DNA of 11,521 nucleotides from Halobacteria archaeon (GTDB lineage: Archaea > Halobacteriota > Methanoliparia > Methanoliparales > Methanoliparaceae): contig DUJX01000033.1 in NCBI GenBank assembly GCA_013329575.1, positions 1 to 11,521 of the forward strand, written 5' to 3'. Made by a program: the position numbers and the translations under genes. Position 1 is the first letter of the stretch. The number at the start of each line of letters is the position of its first letter. The notes beneath the pieces were generated by a model, which did no database searches, had not been told where the DNA came from, and worked only from the letters and a program-made list of their open reading frames with translations. Shown piece by piece: positions 3,911 to 10,976 of the stretch.

Positions 3911-3932
3911 ATTATGAATATATATTCATAAT
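3911..3932. promoter_or_regulatory. 22-bp perfect palindrome, probable operator
   Basis: The half site ATTATGAATAT is followed directly by its exact reverse complement, giving a 22-bp dyad with no spacer. It lies between the TATA box and the start codon, over the predicted transcription start. A protein bound here should block initiation. The adjacent gene encodes a helix-turn-helix protein, so autoregulation is the simplest reading (inference). Confidence 0.6.
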
Positions 3933-3934
3933 TG

Positions 3935-4381
3935 ATGCCGAGAAGAAGGAGATGCAGGAGAGTTGCGTTTTTACCTGATTATATCTATTTCAAACCGTCA
4001 GGAATTGGAATAAGAGATTTAGATGTTATCGAATTGGATTTATCCGAGATTGAAGCTATAAGATTGAAAGATTACCTACGATTGGATCAAGAAGAGGCTG
4101 CGATAAAGATGGGAGTATCTCAACCTACGTTTCATAGAATACTCGATGAAGCAAGAAGAAAAGTAGCAAAGGCGATCATCGATGGTATGGCTTTAAAAAT
4201 AAAGACAGATTCAAACGTTGAATTTTATAAAAACGATGATAAAAGGCTTTTTAGATGTTTTAGTTGTGGTGATGAATGGGAGATAGATTATGGAGAGCCA
4301 AGACCGTCTGTCTGTCCAAGATGCAATTCAAATTTTGTAAGAAGGATACGAGAGGATGAAGATACCGAATATAAAAAATAG
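3935..4381 (+). CDS. DUF134 family DNA-binding protein with C-terminal zinc ribbon
   Basis: A 148-residue probable transcription regulator. The N-terminus PRRRRCRRVAFLP and YFKPSG (18-23) are the DUF134 signature. EAIRLKDYLRLDQEEAAIK (40-58) and GVSQPTFHRIL (60-70) form a sigma-like helix-turn-helix. The C-terminal extension carries CFSC (108-111) and CPRC (127-130), a zinc ribbon, and ends in a charged tail. TTG at 3932 is an alternative start one codon upstream; ATG is preferred because the family starts M-P-R-R. The gene is first in the NifX/MinD cluster and sits directly after a 22-bp palindrome, so it likely controls its own cluster. DUF134 proteins commonly accompany NifX-type and MinD-type genes in anaerobes. 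The ligand or redox signal is unknown. Confidence 0.92.
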   Translation: MPRRRRCRRVAFLPDYIYFKPSGIGIRDLDVIELDLSEIEAIRLKDYLRLDQEEAAIKMGVSQPTFHRILDEARRKVAKAIIDGMALKIKTDSNVEFYKNDDKRLFRCFSCGDEWEIDYGEPRPSVCPRCNSNFVRRIREDEDTEYKK

Positions 4382-4401
4382 AAAAAGGAGGTGAATAAAA
4401 G

Positions 4402-4641
4402 ATGTGGAGAAGATATCCAGGACATGGTCCTTTCAGCGATCTCCCTCCATGGGAGAGGCCTGGATGGGTCTATGGACGAGGCCGCTGTTGGTGGTATCCG
4501 TACTATCAGCCGGCATATAGCCAATACCCGGAGTATAGATTACCTAAAGACGAAGAGATGGCGATGTTGAAGAATGAGCAACAAGCACTTCAGGCAAGGC
4601 TGAAAGAGATCGAAGAAAGGTTAAACGAGATGGAGAAATAA
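4402..4641 (+). CDS. DUF5320 family small protein
   Basis: A 79-residue protein with a strong SD (AAAGGAGGTG) just upstream, 20 nt after DUF134. The N-terminal half is rich in Trp, Tyr, Pro and Gly (PPWERPGWVYGRGRCWWYP, 15-33) and looks unstructured. The C-terminal 30 residues (KDEEMAMLKNEQQALQARL and onward) form a clear coiled-coil helix with Leu/Met heptads. This layout matches DUF5320 proteins, which recur beside NifX-like and MinD-like genes in archaea and anaerobic bacteria. The function is unknown; oligomerisation or scaffolding is a reasonable guess. The coding end overlaps a hairpin terminator. Confidence 0.85.
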   Translation: MWRRYPGHGPFSDLPPWERPGWVYGRGRCWWYPYYQPAYSQYPEYRLPKDEEMAMLKNEQQALQARLKEIEERLNEMEK

Positions 4642-4659
4642 TCATCCATCTCTTTTTTT
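4627..4659 (+). terminator. Hairpin terminator overlapping the DUF5320 stop codon
   Basis: GAGATGGA (4627-4634) pairs with TCCATCTC (4645-4652) around a 10-nt loop holding the TAA stop, followed at once by seven T (4653-4659). This is a bacterial-style intrinsic terminator shape. A TATA-like stretch (TTTATATATAATAAAA) follows and could be a second promoter, though its distance to the next start is short. Confidence 0.6.
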
Positions 4660-4685
4660 ATATATAATAAAATAATGAGGAGAAG

Positions 4686-5087
4686 ATGAAGATCTGTATA
4701 ACATCTGTAGGAAAAGACCTGGATTCGCCAGTAGATCCGAGATTTGGTAGATGTGCTAACTTCATTATCGTAGAGACGGAGACAATGGAGTTTAAAGTAA
4801 TACCAAATATGAATGCATCTCAGATGGGTGGTGCAGGGATACAAGCAGCGAAAGATGTTATTAGATCTGGGGTAGATGCGGTGATATCTGGAGCAATCGG
4901 ACCTAATGCTATTGATGTCTTTAAATCATCAGGTATAGAGTTTTATAGTGCCATACGGGGGAGCGTTATGGATAATATAAATGCTTTCAAAGATGGGAGA
5001 TTACAAGTAATGTATGGACCGACATTCTCTGGACATTTTGGTCAGGAAGGATTTGGTGGGGGTGGCGGACGTGGAGGAAGATGGTGA
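4686..5087 (+). CDS. NifX/NifB-type dinitrogenase iron-molybdenum cofactor family protein
   Basis: A 133-residue protein of the dinitrogenase Fe-Mo cofactor biosynthesis fold (NifX, NafY, NifB C-terminus, ORP), which binds Fe-S or Mo-containing clusters or their precursors. Seen: strand MKICITSVG, then VDPRFGRCANFIIVE (16-30), with the family D-x-x-F-G-R motif, GGAGIQAAKDVI (48-59), DAVISGAIGPNA (64-75) and the GRLQ strand near 104. A Gly-rich tail (EGFGGGGGRGGRW) ends the protein and is typical of stand-alone members. SD GAGGAG lies 4 nt before the ATG. The gene's 3' end overlaps the next small gene. There are no nitrogenase genes in the window, so a role in a non-nitrogenase metal cluster (ORP-like) is more likely. 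Confidence 0.93.
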   Translation: MKICITSVGKDLDSPVDPRFGRCANFIIVETETMEFKVIPNMNASQMGGAGIQAAKDVIRSGVDAVISGAIGPNAIDVFKSSGIEFYSAIRGSVMDNINAFKDGRLQVMYGPTFSGHFGQEGFGGGGGRGGRW

Positions 5088-5220
5088 AAGGCTTGGTTTA
5101 GGACCAGGAGGGTACTGCATCTGCCCAGATTGTGGTTACAGAGAAAAACACAGAAAAGGGGTTCCGTGCAGCACGCTGAAATGTCCCAATTGTGGGGCAA
5201 GTATGAAGAGGGAGGAGTAA
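5071..5220 (+). CDS. Small zinc-ribbon protein (49 aa)
   Basis: A tiny protein with CICPDCG (16-22) and CSTLKCPNCG (33-42) preceded by GPGGY. This is a compact zinc or rubredoxin-like ribbon often found next to NifX-family genes. It lies in another frame from the upstream NifX gene and overlaps its end by 17 nt. The start is uncertain: GTG at 5071 is chosen as the shortest form that gives the usual compact N-terminus, and in-frame GTG codons at 5056 and 5062 or TTG at 5053 are possible. There is no in-frame ATG closer than 5014, which would lie deep in the NifX gene. It ends 4 nt before the next NifX gene. A likely role is metal or Fe-S handling with its neighbours (inference). Confidence 0.8.
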   Translation: MEEDGERLGLGPGGYCICPDCGYREKHRKGVPCSTLKCPNCGASMKREE

Positions 5221-5224
5221 AATA

Positions 5225-5665
5225 ATGGTTGAGACTAATAAAAAAATAAAGATAGCAGTAGTAAGCGATGATGGGGAGACGGTAAGCCAGCATTTTGGTA
5301 GAGCAAGATATTTTGCAATCTTTGAGATCGATGATGGAAAGATAACGGGTAAAGAGATTAGAAATAAAGTAGGACATCATACCTTTGCAGAACAGGGCCA
5401 TTTAGGTACTTCTGGCGGCTTGCATGGCTATGAGCCTCATTCACAGGACAAACATGAGACGATGGCTCAGAGCATAGAGGACTGTAGCGTTCTTATAGCC
5501 GGAGGTATGGGTTACGGTGCCTATGAGTTCTTCAAGTCGATGGGGATAAACGTCATAGCAACCGATGTTGCTGATGCAGAGGACGCAGTAAAAAGATACT
5601 TAAGAGGAGAATTGAGGGATTTAAAGGTAGAGGCTCGACTGATTAGTCAAAAAGGAAAAATTTAG
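5225..5665 (+). CDS. NifX/NifB-type Fe-Mo cofactor family protein with His-rich loop
   Basis: A second member (146 residues) of the dinitrogenase Fe-Mo cofactor fold. Seen: IKIAVVSDDGETVSQHFGRA (8-27, motif HFGRA), YFAIFEID, then an inserted loop with six His between residues 51 and 77, then CSVLIAGGMGYGAYEFFKS (87-105) and GINVIATD. The His-rich insertion is absent from the first copy and could bind metal. The SD GGAGG is close upstream; the gap to the zinc-ribbon gene is 4 nt. Having two different NifX-type proteins with MinD-type ATPases fits assembly of a metal cluster by the cluster, as proposed for ORP systems (known family association; specific cargo unknown). Confidence 0.92.
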   Translation: MVETNKKIKIAVVSDDGETVSQHFGRARYFAIFEIDDGKITGKEIRNKVGHHTFAEQGHLGTSGGLHGYEPHSQDKHETMAQSIEDCSVLIAGGMGYGAYEFFKSMGINVIATDVADAEDAVKRYLRGELRDLKVEARLISQKGKI

Positions 5666-5696
5666 ATCTTAGATACTGATAAAAAAAGGAGCACCG

Positions 5697-6365
5697 ATGA
5701 AGATAAAGATCTTATATGATGATGAAGTTACCGCGGATAAAAAAAAGGTGATCCCTGCCCATGGATTTTCCTGTGTGATAGAGAAAGATGGGGATAGAAT
5801 TCTGTTCGATACGGGCTGGGATAGCAGAATATTATCGAATAATGCGTCTATTGTTGGTGTTGATCTGGAGGGTATTGATAAAATAGTCATCTCGCATGCA
5901 CACTGGGATCATATGGGATCTTTGCCAGCTTTACTGCCTTTAAATGAAAGAAGTAATAAAAAGATATACTTTCCTTCGGCGACAGAGAATATGAGAAAAG
6001 AGATTAAGCAAAGAGCTGATCTTATAACAGAAAAAGAATCTGTAGAGGTAATTAGAGGAGTTTATACGACAGGCCTCATGGGTAAAGAGATAAAAGAACA
6101 GTCATTGCTGATCTATGATGATAAAGGGCTTGTGATAATAACTGGATGTGCGCATCAGGGCGTAGACAATATACTTGAGCGGTCCAGAGAGCTTTTTGGA
6201 GCAAAGGTTTATGCGCTCATAGGAGGGCTGCACGGTTTTAGTGATCTGGATCTTTTAAGAGATATAGAACTCATAGTTCCATGCCATTGTACAGTCGAAA
6301 AAGAGAGGATACGAAGCGGGTTTAACTCTCTAATATGTGGTGTAGGGACTGAGATAGAGATATAA
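5697..6365 (+). CDS. MBL-fold metallo-hydrolase (MJ0301/COG1237-like)
   Basis: A 222-residue metallo-beta-lactamase-fold enzyme. Metal-site motifs are complete: HAHWDH (67-72), CAHQG with His153, GGLHG with His179 and PCHC with His197. The N-terminal ILFDTGWD (35-42) is typical. Relatives in archaea are annotated as 7,8-dihydropterin-6-methyl-4-(beta-D-ribofuranosyl)aminobenzene-5'-phosphate synthase, after the MJ0301 family, linked to methanopterin synthesis; the activity in this context is not proven. It is slightly short for the family (about 220-270). SD AAAGGAGC lies before the ATG. It follows the NifX gene by 31 nt and so appears to be part of the cluster. The stretch after it (6366-6525) has no convincing gene. 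Confidence 0.9.
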   Translation: MKIKILYDDEVTADKKKVIPAHGFSCVIEKDGDRILFDTGWDSRILSNNASIVGVDLEGIDKIVISHAHWDHMGSLPALLPLNERSNKKIYFPSATENMRKEIKQRADLITEKESVEVIRGVYTTGLMGKEIKEQSLLIYDDKGLVIITGCAHQGVDNILERSRELFGAKVYALIGGLHGFSDLDLLRDIELIVPCHCTVEKERIRSGFNSLICGVGTEIEI

Positions 6366-6373
6366 AAAGGTAC

Positions 6374-6444
6374 AGGAGAATACATATTCGGTGAGGTCTC
6401 CTATGATTGGATGAATATGATAAGGGTATTTTATGATCATAAAA
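6374..6444. promoter_or_regulatory. Inverted repeats in the leader upstream of the MinD pair
   Basis: Two dyads lie in the 160-nt gap. AGGAGA (6374-6379) pairs with TCTCCT (6397-6402). A perfect 16-bp palindrome, TTTTATGATCATAAAA, occupies 6429-6444 and is flanked by GGGT and ACCT, which can extend the stem around one bulged A. They could be operators or RNA hairpins controlling the two ATPase genes. A TATA-like CTATTTATC sits at about 6473. Confidence 0.4.
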
Positions 6445-6525
6445 ACCTCAAAGGGAGGATAAACGTCAAATCCTATTTATCAACGTGAGCAACTTGACAA
6501 AAAAGATGGATATTAAGGTGAAAGC

Positions 6526-7365
6526 ATGATAATAGCTGTAGCCAGTGGAAAGGGTGGAACGGGAAAGACGCTCATGGCCACAAGTCTGGCTCTCTCTATA
6601 AACGAAAAGCTGACATTTCTCGATTGCGATGTTGAGGAGCCGAACAGTGCCATATTTTTAAAGCCGGAGATAGAGAGGGATGAGGAAACCACCAAGATTG
6701 TGCCCTCCGTAGATTATGAGAAATGCAATTTCTGTGCAAAGTGCGAAGAGGTGTGCGCATACAACGCGATAGTGGTGGTAAAAGATAAAGTGATGATATT
6801 CCCAGAATTGTGCCACAGTTGCGGGGCGTGTTCGACTCTTTGTCCTAAAAATGCAATAAAAGAGGGGAAAAGGAGGATAGGGGTCATAAGAAGGGGCAAG
6901 CGGGAAAAAATAGACTTTTATGAGGGGGTGCTTGACATAGGAGAGCCCATGGCTACTCCACTCATAAGAAAGGTCAAAAATAAAGGGGAAGGGCTCACGA
7001 TCATAGACTGCCCTCCTGGAACTGCATGCCCTGTAATGGAGAGCGTCAGAGGGAGCGATTATATCCTTATGGTGACAGAAGCAACTCCTTTTGGATTGAG
7101 CGATCTTAAGATGGCTGTAGAGACATTTACAGAGTTAGGGCTTAAAATGGGTCTTATAATAAACAAGTCTATCGGCAATGATGAAGAGATCGAAAAATTC
7201 TGCATTGAAAAGAATATCGAGGTATTGGTGAAGATTCCACTCGATAGAATGATTGCAGAAGGATACTCTAAAGGAAGAAATTTGATCGAGATAAGCCCTG
7301 TTTATAAAGAGAAAATAAAAGATATATATAGGAGGATTAAAAACGAGACAGATAGCGATAATTAG
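6526..7365 (+). CDS. MinD/Mrp-type P-loop ATPase with inserted 2[4Fe-4S] ferredoxin
   Basis: A 279-residue ATPase of the MinD superfamily subgroup with a ferredoxin insert (COG1149-like). A deviant Walker A, SGKGGTGKT (7-15), is followed by FLDCDVEEPN (31-40). Two four-Cys motifs are inserted at Cys67/70/73/77 and Cys96/99/102/106. The Walker B-like strand IIDCPPGTACPV (159-170) and IINKS (211-215) complete the fold. Family members are ATP-driven Fe-S or metal-cluster carriers or redox switches; in ORP systems two such proteins work with the NifX-type protein. SD AAGGTGA precedes the ATG. It overlaps the paralogous second ATPase gene by 23 nt if that gene starts at 7343; its own last codons hold that gene's SD. 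Confidence 0.93.
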   Translation: MIIAVASGKGGTGKTLMATSLALSINEKLTFLDCDVEEPNSAIFLKPEIERDEETTKIVPSVDYEKCNFCAKCEEVCAYNAIVVVKDKVMIFPELCHSCGACSTLCPKNAIKEGKRRIGVIRRGKREKIDFYEGVLDIGEPMATPLIRKVKNKGEGLTIIDCPPGTACPVMESVRGSDYILMVTEATPFGLSDLKMAVETFTELGLKMGLIINKSIGNDEEIEKFCIEKNIEVLVKIPLDRMIAEGYSKGRNLIEISPVYKEKIKDIYRRIKNETDSDN

Positions 7366-8221
7366 TGGAAAAGGAGGCACGGGAAAGACTGTCATATCTG
7401 CATCCCTGGCTTCTGTATCTAAAAATATTCTTCTCATCGATTGTGATGTTGATGCTCCTAATCTTGAGATTCTTCTCAAGCCTGATGTGATAGAAAGATG
7501 CGATTTTTATGGGATGCAAAAAGCAGAGATCATAGAAGAAAGTTGTGTATCATGTGGAATATGTAGAGAGAACTGCAGGTTTGATGCAATAATCGAGATT
7601 GAAAAAATTGGAACTTTTTTCATAGATAGAACAGCATGCGATGGATGTAGACTCTGCTTTGAACTCTGTCCATCCGATGCAGTCAGAATGACCGAAAATC
7701 TTGCCGGACATTGGTTTGTTTCTAATACGGGTTACGCCCCCTTCATTCATGCTAAGTTAAAGGCTGCAGAAGAAAACTCTGGTAGACTTGTAGCGGTTAT
7801 AAGGAACAGTGCGAAGGAGATAGCAGAGAGAGACGCGATAGATTTTATAATCATAGACGGGCCTCCGGGTATAGGTTGCCCACTAATATCCACGCTTTCT
7901 GGTGTAGATCTTGCTATAGTGGTATTTGAGCCGACTTTTTCGAGTTTTCACGATGGGAAAAGGGTTATAGAGGTAGCAGAACATTTTGGGATCGGGATTT
8001 CATGTATAATAAACAAGTTTGATCTTAATGAGATGATAACACAGGATATCGAGGGCTTTTGTCGCCGAAAAGGCATCCAAGTATTAGAGAATATCCCTTA
8101 TGACGAAAAATTTGTAAAGGCTTTGTCCAAGAAAGAGATCATAGCAGAAGTGGATAAAAAATATAAGGATATCTTTGAGAAGATCTGGAGCAGAATACTC
8201 GGTAATTTTAAATATTTATAA
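7343..8221 (+). CDS. Second MinD-type ATPase with ferredoxin insert, apparent ACG start
   Basis: A paralogue of the preceding ATPase (292 residues from 7343). Walker A SGKGGTGKT (8-16), LLIDCDVDAPN (30-40), ferredoxin motifs Cys68/71/74/78 and Cys99/102/105/109, IIIDGPPGIGCP (169-180) and IINKFD (222-227). Translation must begin before 7361, because the P-loop is essential, but there is no ATG, GTG or TTG between the in-frame TAA at 7316-7318 and a GTG at 7487 that lies beyond the P-loop. ACG at 7343 is best: it gives (M)RQIAIISGKGG, as in relatives, and AGGAGG (7330-7335) is 7 nt upstream. Either ACG initiates, or this base is a sequence error or an edited site. It probably forms a heterodimer with the first ATPase. 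The gene ends 18 nt from a convergent gene. Confidence 0.88.
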   Translation, partial: TRQIAIISGKGGTGKTVISASLASVSKNILLIDCDVDAPNLEILLKPDVIERCDFYGMQKAEIIEESCVSCGICRENCRFDAIIEIEKIGTFFIDRTACDGCRLCFELCPSDAVRMTENLAGHWFVSNTGYAPFIHAKLKAAEENSGRLVAVIRNSAKEIAERDAIDFIIIDGPPGIGCPLISTLSGVDLAIVVFEPTFSSFHDGKRVIEVAEHFGIGISCIINKFDLNEMITQDIEGFCRRKGIQVLENIPYDEKFVKALSKKEIIAEVDKKYKDIFEKIWSRILGNFKYL

Positions 8222-8521: not shown

Positions 8522-8555
8522 CTCATATCACCCGTTTTTCTATAACTACTGATTA

Positions 8556-8570
8556 TTTTTATATAAAATT
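8556..8570 (-). promoter_or_regulatory. TATA box of the AhpD-like gene
   Basis: Reading on the - strand, AATTTTATATAAAAA is centred about 40 nt before the start codon. Start of transcription would be near 8538, leaving a short leader with the SD. Confidence 0.45.
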
Positions 8571-8712
8571 TATGATAAAATCCTATTAACAAAAGTATCA
8601 CGACAGTAAAGAGACAATTATTTATGAAGGAGGAGACAGGCTGAGATTATAAACTCAAAGATATTCAAAATCTTTTATTTAATTATATGATATTTTTCTA
8701 CTTTATTATAAG

Positions 8713-8727
8713 AAATATTTATTAATT
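8713..8727 (+). promoter_or_regulatory. TATA box of the CooS-like gene
   Basis: AATATTTATTAATTA lies about 40 nt before the ATG at 8760, predicting a start near 8743 and a short leader with SD GGTGA (8751-8755). The rest of 8571-8712 is AT-rich divergent promoter space with no gene that I can support. Confidence 0.45.
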
Positions 8728-8759
8728 AGAAATCTCTTATCTCATTTATAGGTGAAAAA

Positions 8760-10661
8760 ATGGAAGGAGACCGAATATCTTATCACGAATCTGTTCTTAA
8801 AGCTTATGAACGGATAAAGATGGACAAAATGAGCAACGTCTGGGACCGATATGCGGCACAGGGTATTGGGGATAATCCCGACAATAGATGCCAGTTTTGC
8901 ATGACAGGAAGAAGATGTGATCTGTGCTCAAACGGACCTTGTAGAGCTGATGCCGCTATAGACAAGAGGGGGGTATGCGGAATCACGGCTGATGGCATGG
9001 CAATGCGGATGATGCTGCTCAGGAATGTCATGGGAGCATCTACTTATCAGTACCATGCTGAACAGACTATAAAGACTCTCAGATCATCTGCTGATGGCAA
9101 GAGTCCTTTTAAGATTAGAGAACCACAAAAACTAAAAACCCTGGCCGAACGGCTTGGGATAGATGTATCTGGTAGGCCAGAGGAGATAGCCTTGCGTCTT
9201 TGTGATTTCGTTGATGAGGATTTCAATAGAAAGGCTGATGAACCGAGCAGGATAGTGGAGATGCTTGCACCTGAGGAGCGGAAAAAACTCTGGAAAAAAC
9301 TGGACATATTCCCAGGAGGGATACACGGTGAGATCATGAGGACAACCAGCTCGTGTCTGACGAATGTGGATGGTTATTATGCAAGCTTAGCTTTGAAAGC
9401 CATGAGGCTCTCTATTGCCATGGCGTACCAGAGCCAGATAATTCTTGAGTATTGTCAGGATGTTATGTTCGGAGTCCCGAGGCCTCACGAGGTGAGAGTG
9501 AATCTGGGCGTCCTTGACCCAGAGTATGTTAATGTTCTGGCAAATGGGCACGAACCTTTTCTGGGTTTTGCAATGGCAGAACTTGCAAGAAAGAAAGAGT
9601 GGCAAGAGAGAGCGAAAACAGCCGAGGCAAAGGGTATTAGAGTCATAGCTAACATAGAGACAGGACAAGAAATGATACAGCGCTGGGAGACGGATGACGT
9701 CTTTTATGGTTTTACGGGTAACTGGATAATGCAAGAGGCCGTATTAGCAAGCGGATGCGTTGACTTATTCGCATGTGATATGAACTGTTCCCTACCAATG
9801 GATCCGCTCTATGCAAAAAAGTACAGATTCAGACTGGTTCCTGTAAGCGATCTTGTTGTCTTCGAAGGAGTTGAAGATAGAGTGAATTACGCGCCTGAAA
9901 AAGCTGAGGAACAGGCAGCAAAACTCCTGAGCATGGCTATAGAGAACTTTCCTGAGAGAAGAAGCATGATAGAACCCATAACGGGACAACCCGTAGGCAA
10001 TGCTATTGTTGGATTCTCAACAGAGTCTATTCTTGATGTCTTGGGAGGCAGCTTAGAACCACTGCTTGATGTTATAAAAAGTGGGGCTATACGAGGAGTG
10101 GCTGGTCTTGTCTCATGCACAACCCTTAGAGATCATGGGCAGGACGTCCACAGCGTTACGATGGCAAAAGAGCTTATCAAAAGAGATGTGCTTGTGCTCT
10201 CAATGGGCTGTGGAAATGCGGCAATGCAGGTTGCAGGCCTATGCACCCTAGATGCGAGAAATATGGCTGGTTCCGGTCTTAAAAGTGTGTGTGAAAAGCT
10301 GGACATCCCGCCTGTTCTTAGCTACGGAACGTGTACCGATACCGGACGTCTGGCAGACCTTCTTGCCGCCGTATCTGGATCTCTCGGAGTTTCCATACCA
10401 GATCTTCCTGTGGCTGCAGTTGCCCCTGAATACATGGAGCAGAAGGCAACGATAGATGCGATATTCGCCCTTGCTCTTGGTCTGTACACATATGTGAATC
10501 CGGTTCCAACGGTAACGGGTGGTCCAAACCTTGTGAGGCTTTTGACACAGGATTGCAGAGATGTTACGGGGGGTGTGATGGATGTGGAGAAAGATCCAGT
10601 CAAAGCTGCAGACAATATCGTAGCGCACATAGATGCAAAGAGAAAAAAACTGGGGATATGA
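8760..10661 (+). CDS. CooS-family protein with hybrid-cluster-type active site (probably not a CO dehydrogenase)
   Basis: A full-length (633 residues) member of the monofunctional Ni-CO dehydrogenase catalytic subunit family. Cluster D: Cys44-x2-Cys47; cluster B: Cys53, 56, 61, 73. Active-site ligands aligned by eye with Carboxydothermus CODH-II: His264 (His261), Cys343 (333), Cys453 (446), Cys484 (476), Cys525 (526) and Lys562 (563). Where CODH-II has Cys295 in GICCTGNE, this protein has ANIETGQE with Glu300. Hybrid-cluster protein has Glu at that position, and CooS-V of Carboxydothermus, which lacks a canonical Cys and holds an Fe-S-O cluster, neither oxidises CO nor reduces CO2 and turns over hydroxylamine slowly. 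Function here is therefore more likely a hybrid-cluster redox reaction (inference). No CooC or CooF gene lies nearby; a cupin gene follows 3 nt later. Confidence 0.93.
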   Translation: MEGDRISYHESVLKAYERIKMDKMSNVWDRYAAQGIGDNPDNRCQFCMTGRRCDLCSNGPCRADAAIDKRGVCGITADGMAMRMMLLRNVMGASTYQYHAEQTIKTLRSSADGKSPFKIREPQKLKTLAERLGIDVSGRPEEIALRLCDFVDEDFNRKADEPSRIVEMLAPEERKKLWKKLDIFPGGIHGEIMRTTSSCLTNVDGYYASLALKAMRLSIAMAYQSQIILEYCQDVMFGVPRPHEVRVNLGVLDPEYVNVLANGHEPFLGFAMAELARKKEWQERAKTAEAKGIRVIANIETGQEMIQRWETDDVFYGFTGNWIMQEAVLASGCVDLFACDMNCSLPMDPLYAKKYRFRLVPVSDLVVFEGVEDRVNYAPEKAEEQAAKLLSMAIENFPERRSMIEPITGQPVGNAIVGFSTESILDVLGGSLEPLLDVIKSGAIRGVAGLVSCTTLRDHGQDVHSVTMAKELIKRDVLVLSMGCGNAAMQVAGLCTLDARNMAGSGLKSVCEKLDIPPVLSYGTCTDTGRLADLLAAVSGSLGVSIPDLPVAAVAPEYMEQKATIDAIFALALGLYTYVNPVPTVTGGPNLVRLLTQDCRDVTGGVMDVEKDPVKAADNIVAHIDAKRKKLGI

Positions 10662-10664
10662 AAG

Positions 10665-10976
10665 ATGGATAGAGCAAAACCAGTAAAGATGACAGAACTT
10701 TCAGAATACCAGAAAGATGCCATAGTGAGCAGAACGATCATAGACAGGAAAACAGGAACGGTAACTTTCTTTGCGTTTGATGAAGGGCAGGGTTTGAGCG
10801 AGCATACTGCACCATTTGATGCGCTTGTACAAATAATCGAGGGCGAGGCAGAGGTAAAGGTCTCTCAAGTGATATTTAATCTCAAAGAGGGAGAACTCTT
10901 ACTTATACCGACAGGTGCACCACACGAGCTCAAAGCCGTTAAAAGGTTTAAAATGTTGCTTACGATGATACGATAA
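10665..10976 (+). CDS. Small single-domain cupin
   Basis: A 103-residue cupin. Motif 1 is G-L-S-E-H-T-A-P-F-D with His47 and IIEGEAEV (57-64); motif 2 is GELLLIPTGAPHELKA with Pro82, Gly84 and His87. The usual second His of motif 1 is absent, as in many small cupins of anaerobes, so metal binding may be weak or use other residues. The start is 3 nt after the CooS-like stop, so the two form an operon. Substrate unknown; a role as sensor or accessory protein for the CooS-like enzyme is inference. Confidence 0.92.
   Translation: MDRAKPVKMTELSEYQKDAIVSRTIIDRKTGTVTFFAFDEGQGLSEHTAPFDALVQIIEGEAEVKVSQVIFNLKEGELLLIPTGAPHELKAVKRFKMLLTMIR

Follow-up and report, generated by a model that had tools for sequence, protein, structure and literature searches.

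A probable CooS-V-type hybrid-cluster protein encoded beside a cupin in an MCR archaeon of the Methanoliparaceae

A gene of the prismane/CODH family with glutamate in place of a C-cluster cysteine raises the question of whether its product is a CO dehydrogenase at all and, if it is not, what it might do together with the small cupin encoded directly behind it. The gene lies in the window analysed here, the whole 11,521-nucleotide stretch of contig DUJX01000033.1 from a Methanoliparaceae archaeon, on the same contig as mcrG (16-594) and mcrA (610-2274), which bear out the description of the host in an earlier note on this DNA as an MCR archaeon. The features concerned are:

8522..8759, + strand: intergenic stretch upstream of the CooS-V gene, presumed promoter
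8760..10661, + strand: prismane/CODH-family protein of 633 aa, CooS-V-type (clade D, group D-1), with Glu300 in place of Cys295
9657..9659, + strand: Glu300 codon (position reckoned from the start of the ORF); Glu300 pairs with CooS-V Glu295, where CODH-II has Cys295
10665..10976, + strand: small single-domain cupin, "type A", 103 aa, 3 nt past the CooS-V stop codon

The open reading frame at 8760-10661 is complete from ATG to stop, matches the Prismane/CODH family of Pfam at 486.5 bits and passes the NCBIfam equivalog model for the CODH catalytic subunit (738.6 bits against a cut-off of 478), but does not reach the cut-off of the HCP model TIGR01703 (31.3 against 360.8 bits). Its product has cysteines for the D-cluster (C44, C47) and the B-cluster (C53, C56, C61, C73), and its other key residues are Tyr96, His264, Glu300, Asn342, Cys343, Cys453, Cys484, Cys525, Glu560 and Lys562. 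The five Cys and one His of the canonical Ni-CODH C-cluster are thus incomplete, Cys295 being Glu. The best PDB match is CooS-V of Carboxydothermus (7b7q; 694.6 bits over residues 5-633), the second best being a CODH chain with Cys at the position (407.5 bits), and in the HMMER alignment Glu300 pairs with Glu295 of CooS-V within a gap-free stretch, a placement made by sequence alignment to the solved homologue, not by structural alignment. No Cys is present in residues 294-306, so no nearby Cys substitutes for Cys295, and the alignment check proposed in the earlier note therefore came out, at the sequence level, in favour of its claim that Glu300 replaces Cys295 with the remaining C-cluster ligands kept. 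The region reads IETGQE in the window protein and CCTGNE in the canonical-type CooS of the host genome.

In 7b7q a Ni-free Fe-S-O hybrid cluster is bound by His259, Glu295, Cys338, Cys449, Cys480, Cys521 and Glu556 (PMC9311411), and all of these residues are matched in the window protein at an offset of 5 residues (up to Cys343) or 4. The pattern of His, Glu and four Cys that had been recognized from the sequence as that of a hybrid cluster agrees with the published ligand lists, which also include the second Glu (PMC9311411, PMC6344411). The window protein also carries the D-1 signature tabulated in PMC6344411 (Table 2), which consists of a type III D-cluster together with His, Glu, four Cys, Tyr and Lys: the D-cluster motif Cys-X2-Cys-X5-Cys is present (C44-X2-C47-X5-C53), Tyr96 stands at the position of the acid-base His, Lys562 is kept, and Glu560 precedes it by two residues. 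The kind of protein is already published, as clade D, group D-1 (PMC6344411, PMC9311411). The window protein resembles CooS-V in all cluster ligands including Glu295/Glu300, in the type III D-cluster motif, in the Tyr replacing the acid-base His, in Glu556/Glu560 and in its near full-length alignment; it differs in its archaeal MCR host, in the cupin directly downstream and in two extra cysteines (Cys333 and Cys339). HCP (prismane) has a comparable set of ligands (His, Glu, four Cys and Glu, with Lys) and both cupin types among its neighbours at some loci, whereas the window sequence is far under the HCP model cut-off and has, by sequence, the CODH scaffold, from which CooS-V and HCP reportedly had separate origins (PMC9311411). 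Canonical Ni-CODH CooS proteins, such as that of the host genome (L001), share with it the scaffold, the B-cluster and five of the six C-cluster ligands, but the window protein has Glu for Cys295, Tyr for the acid-base His, and other neighbours.

It is scarcely credible that the protein is an ordinary Ni-CODH tolerating Glu at the Cys295 position. Its score against the NCBIfam CODH equivalog speaks for such an enzyme, but CooS-V, with the same Glu, contained no Ni and showed neither CO oxidation nor CO2 reduction, and when Cys295 of CODH-II was changed to Glu, the C295E protein produced in E. coli was deficient in Ni and could not oxidize CO (PMC9311411). Assignment to the CooS-V-type Fe-S-O hybrid-cluster proteins, not to the CODHs, is well supported by the solved homologue with the same ligands and by the D-1 signature (PMC9311411; PMC6344411 Table 2), as the earlier note had it when calling a CODH label misleading. 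The window gene was accordingly rejected as a canonical CODH, the canonical-type gene of the host being L001 on contig C20.

A search of species genomes located 385 stretches that encode relatives of the window protein. Among the 80 most similar to the window (L017-L096) are archaea (Methanosarcina, Methanophagales, Methanoperedenaceae, Archaeoglobus, Bathyarchaeota, Hadarchaeum, Methanofastidiosum and Asgard archaea) and bacteria (Chloroflexi, Actinobacteria and Deltaproteobacteria). Rarity of such a protein in an MCR archaeon, as the earlier note had implied, is ruled out by relatives in so many archaea and bacteria. Within the window's phylum, taken here to be Halobacteriota, full-length relatives of at least 68% identity occur in 64 of 392 genomes, that of the window among them, and 32 further genomes have a relative at 49-55% identity, both being hand counts with the Glu confirmed for part of them. 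Near the host the D-1 gene is patchy, a CooS-V-type match being found in one of the five genomes of the host family (G000 to G004), G000 only. In a quick tree, to which D-2, D-3, D-4 and the remaining clades contributed no reference sequence apart from a single canonical row, the window protein grouped with two database proteins at supports of 95 and 99, while its grouping with Jordarchaeum was weak (36); no gene-transfer donor is named on this basis.

Removal of near-identical proteins from 157 D-1 loci left 136, the window counted. Glu occupies the Cys295 column in all 136 non-redundant D-1 proteins and Cys in all 39 canonical CooS proteins; thus, Glu300 is no chance slip. His264, Glu300, the four Cys, Glu560 and Lys562 are likewise kept in 136 of 136, and the 16-residue D-1 signature is identical in 135, the remaining protein having one unreadable D-cluster position. 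The two additional cysteines of the window protein, Cys333 and Cys339 (window 9756-9776), lie near ligand Cys343; they occur in 82 and 55 of the 136 D-1 proteins, respectively, and are absent from 7b7q and the 39 canonical CooS proteins. One relative at 42% identity (L013, G030:C3:80912-82774), left out of the D-1 set because it falls below the 45% threshold, has Asp at the Cys295/Glu position and is without the second D-cluster Cys (signature CGCCCCYHDNCCCCEK); it is possibly a further variant. Two D-1 relatives each contain one in-frame stop, L006 (G024) a TAG at window residue 86 and that of G114 a TGA; pyrrolysine, selenocysteine, decay or a sequence error could each account for them. In the G114 copy (L166) the D-cluster Cys44 column could not be read.

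The host genome, which is 85% complete, was examined for other members of the family and for the surroundings of the gene. A separate CooS on contig C20 (L001) has Cys at the position and is flanked by an Fe-S protein resembling CooF and by an ORF resembling FAD/NAD oxidoreductases (both named by eye), and a third prismane-family gene, an 845-residue open frame on C86, is presumably CdhA. No HCP match above the family cut-off was found, an absence that is uncertain because of the completeness of the genome. The assembly has one McrA, whereas three of four relatives (G001, G002 and G004) have a second, divergent McrA besides the canonical one, a feature suggestive of Methanoliparia. In G001, of the same genus, one 17-kb stretch carries mcrG, mcrA, a U32-like gene, DUF5402 and an ahpD-like gene, the last two about 1.4 kb apart; CooS-V and the cupin were not found on this stretch, nor does it have a match to the block at 3932-8221 of the window (DUF134, two NifX-like genes, an MBL-fold gene and two ferredoxin-fused ParA/MinD-like genes). 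That the two ATPases (6526-7365 and 7487-8221) might be CooC was considered but not adopted; they appear to be the ferredoxin-fused ParA/MinD-like proteins, and an opposite-strand gene separates them from CooS-V.

The cupin gene beside the CooS homologue, on the same strand with a gap of 3 nt, had been pointed out in the earlier note and proved the useful clue. Its product scores 28.8 bits against the Cupin_2 cut-off of 27.2 and is the sole Cupin_2 match found in the assembled genome. By an HMM built from 14 CooS-V neighbours, a cupin was detected within 600 bp of 28 of the 136 D-1 loci, in 26 of them with both genes on one strand. These figures count the window, 12 of the 28 are seed loci (16 of 124 remain when seed loci are omitted), and loci of related genomes are not independent. 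At the same distance a cupin was detected at none of the 39 canonical CooS loci (40 hand-picked loci of the window's phylum before redundancy removal) and at 8 of 26 hcp loci (kept from 30 of the window's phylum, L155 being without a full ORF). The other 108 D-1 loci have no such cupin at this distance. Fisher p values against canonical CooS are 8e-4 for D-1 and 3e-4 for HCP, and restricting D-1 to the window's phylum gives 14 of 61, the window counted, to be compared with the 0 of 39 above. A tally of Pfam families, independent of the cupin HMM, places Cupin_2 as the commonest among same-strand neighbours within 250 bp of D-1 genes (19 of 125, window included, out of 140 neighbours from which 15, mostly ORFs truncated at locus ends or very short, were excluded by hand), with MFS_1 at 7 and glutaredoxin at 3. 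The 44 canonical CooS neighbours scanned were led by Fer4 proteins (24) and CbiA/ArsA-type ATPases (11), and Cupin_2 was not among the 25 of 34 families listed for them.

Cupins are sited upstream or downstream of CooS-V, in several phyla, and are of two main types, A, which is that of the window and has the motif LSEHTAPFDA, and B, with HITPVDVFF. Classed by these motifs, the nearby cupins comprise 10 of type A, 14 of type B and 4 others at D-1 loci, and 1 of type A and 7 of type B at hcp loci; in the cupin tree both types have CooS-V-adjacent and hcp-adjacent members. When the search was reversed, 17 of 30 type-B loci were flanked by hcp (14) or CooS-V (3), in a set that comprises the loci nearest one hcp-adjacent cupin, is biased toward hcp neighbours and retains near-identical loci, whereas a prismane-family gene flanked 2 of the 30 loci nearest the window's cupin, one of them the window itself. 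Type-B cupins are thus strongly linked to these enzymes, and type-A cupins, to which the window's own belongs, only modestly. Type-A cupins of L248 and L260 directly adjoin an FrdX-like protein (by eye; Fer4 confirmed for L248), and type-B cupins of L276, L277, L287 and L296 have, at a distance of 144-396 bp, a small gene resembling nitrite/sulfite reductases (by eye), which in L276 only is Pfam-confirmed and nearest NirB in NCBIfam.

That the association with cupins is a by-product of compact genomes and shared locus ancestry is improbable. The predominance of type-A cupins elsewhere, the dependence among loci and the seeding of the HMM by CooS-V neighbours all point that way, but siting on either side of the gene, two main cupin types in several phyla, the complete lack of such cupins at canonical CooS loci of the same phylum, the independent Pfam tally and the occurrence of the assembly's only Cupin_2 match at this very place are against it. 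The cupin partnership common to CooS-V and HCP is what is new here: the CODH context survey PMC13056359 terms clade D variable, does not discuss its operons further, and does not use the word cupin in its main text, and in the main texts searched, from a library with few subscription journals, no report of a CooS-V–cupin pair was found. Passages of PMC13079737, PMC8470020 and PMC10210160 do not alter this picture.

Cupins have been recorded near hcp before. In the NO table of PMC5701242 the values are 4.4 for Ddes_1828 ("Cupin fold protein") and 3.17 for Ddes_1829 (hcp); a cupin is among the genes around hcp and hcpR in Desulfovibrio (PMC4287179); and hcp-frdX operons and NO-linked regulators have been described (PMC1274295). 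An HMM for FrdX-like proteins, made from a mixed cluster of neighbours, has matches within 600 bp of 23 of 136 D-1 loci (14 at E <= 1e-30, by our own row count), 8 of the 39 canonical loci (lowest E 2e-14) and just one of the 26 HCP loci. An FrdX-like neighbour as a general rule was therefore set aside as secondary, given these counts, the mixed origin of the HMM and its matches at canonical loci. Small nitrite/sulfite reductase-like proteins lie 111-806 bp from CooS-V at L169, L172, L173 and L177, with cupins further along; these NIR_SIR-like neighbours, at 4 of 136 D-1 loci, belong to a single genus (Pfam confirmed for L169).

The reading that we prefer, at slightly under even probability, is that the CooS-V protein is made with the cupin and protects the cell from reactive nitrogen species, or from some similar small oxidant, doing HCP-like work. 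The protein would be a homodimer built on the scaffold of CO dehydrogenase. A [2Fe-2S] D-cluster would lie at the subunit interface, each subunit would contain a [4Fe-4S] B-cluster, and a Ni-free Fe-S-O hybrid cluster would be bound by His264, Glu300, Cys343, Cys453, Cys484, Cys525 and Glu560, to which electrons from a low-potential donor would pass by way of the remaining clusters. Once the cluster is reduced, the persulfide sulfur of Cys525 would shift into it and open a channel, so that a small oxidised substrate could bind the reduced form and be reduced there. The cluster types, persulfide switch and channel are modelled on the solved homologue, in which a persulfide on Cys521 gates a channel and for which a reductase was suggested on that account (PMC9311411). 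What the sequences show directly is the family, the ligand set, the gene pair and the recurrence of that pair. We infer co-transcription of the pair, the electron donor and the part of the cupin, and the favoured substrate is drawn from the partners shared with hcp. The window pair may form a reducing system directed at nitrogen oxides or another small oxidant of that kind; a hydroxylamine or NO role, which the earlier note had brought up as a question, is a hypothesis.

Real objections to such a substrate come from CooS-V itself, whose NO reduction was not above background, whose hydroxylamine reduction was slow (kcat/KM 20 M-1 s-1), and whose potentials of -390, -170 and +80 mV include cluster potentials about 300 mV lower than those of E. 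coli HCP, which its authors took as a sign that its role in the cell is another (PMC9311411). The negative NO assay and the weak hydroxylamine activity may reflect the lack of a partner protein or donor. The same measurements, with the varied neighbours of D-1 genes (MFS_1 and glutaredoxin among them), agree with the same hybrid-cluster protein acting at very low potential on peroxide, persulfide or another small oxidant that is not a nitrogen oxide; against this, the cupin partners are common to hcp, which is itself NO-linked (PMC5701242, PMC1274295), and we judge it somewhat unlikely. Less likely again is the proposal made in PMC13056359 for clades C and D, that such proteins serve as redox sensors or regulators and have no real turnover. 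Clade D genes are found alongside active CODHs and are often coded alone (PMC13056359), and the host genome also has its canonical-type CooS, which would suit a sensor, but the conservation of His264, Glu300, the four Cys, Glu560 and Lys562 throughout the D-1 set and the gated channel from which the authors of PMC9311411 suggested a reductase would not. In favour of the preferred, protective reading, the clade D protein of Archaeoglobus fulgidus reportedly has no part in CO metabolism (PMC13056359), and the host genome has no HCP match above the cut-off but does have a separate canonical-type CooS. Against it, deletion of the clade D gene in Clostridium autoethanogenum had no immediate effect except a moderately lower biomass yield (PMC13056359), most D-1 loci have no such cupin nearby, and type-A cupins mostly stand away from prismane genes. 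M. acetivorans has clade A CODHs only (PMC13056359).

A broader form of the protective role proposed here for CooS-V and its cupin would have CooS-V and HCP sharing a set of partners (small cupins of two types and, at some loci, an FrdX-like protein with two 4Fe-4S motifs), the cupin functional in the hybrid-cluster chemistry of anaerobes, and CooS-V doing the work of HCP in genomes without HCP, apparently including this one. Such a general scheme is possible but on balance unlikely. Clade D is the clade that co-occurs most with HCP (PMC13056359), which argues against a simple replacement of HCP.

The nearest relatives of the window protein, where named, are called "carbon-monoxide dehydrogenase catalytic subunit" (3174 proteins at E <= 1e-150, whatever their residue at the Glu position), and because the curated CODH model is passed, an automatic pipeline would label the gene CO dehydrogenase. 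CO metabolism is thus probably over-read from such genes, and such over-reading is likely in methanogens and other anaerobes. Partners common to hcp would make the role of CooS-V in the cell testable, for example in a Methanosarcina strain carrying a D-1 gene.
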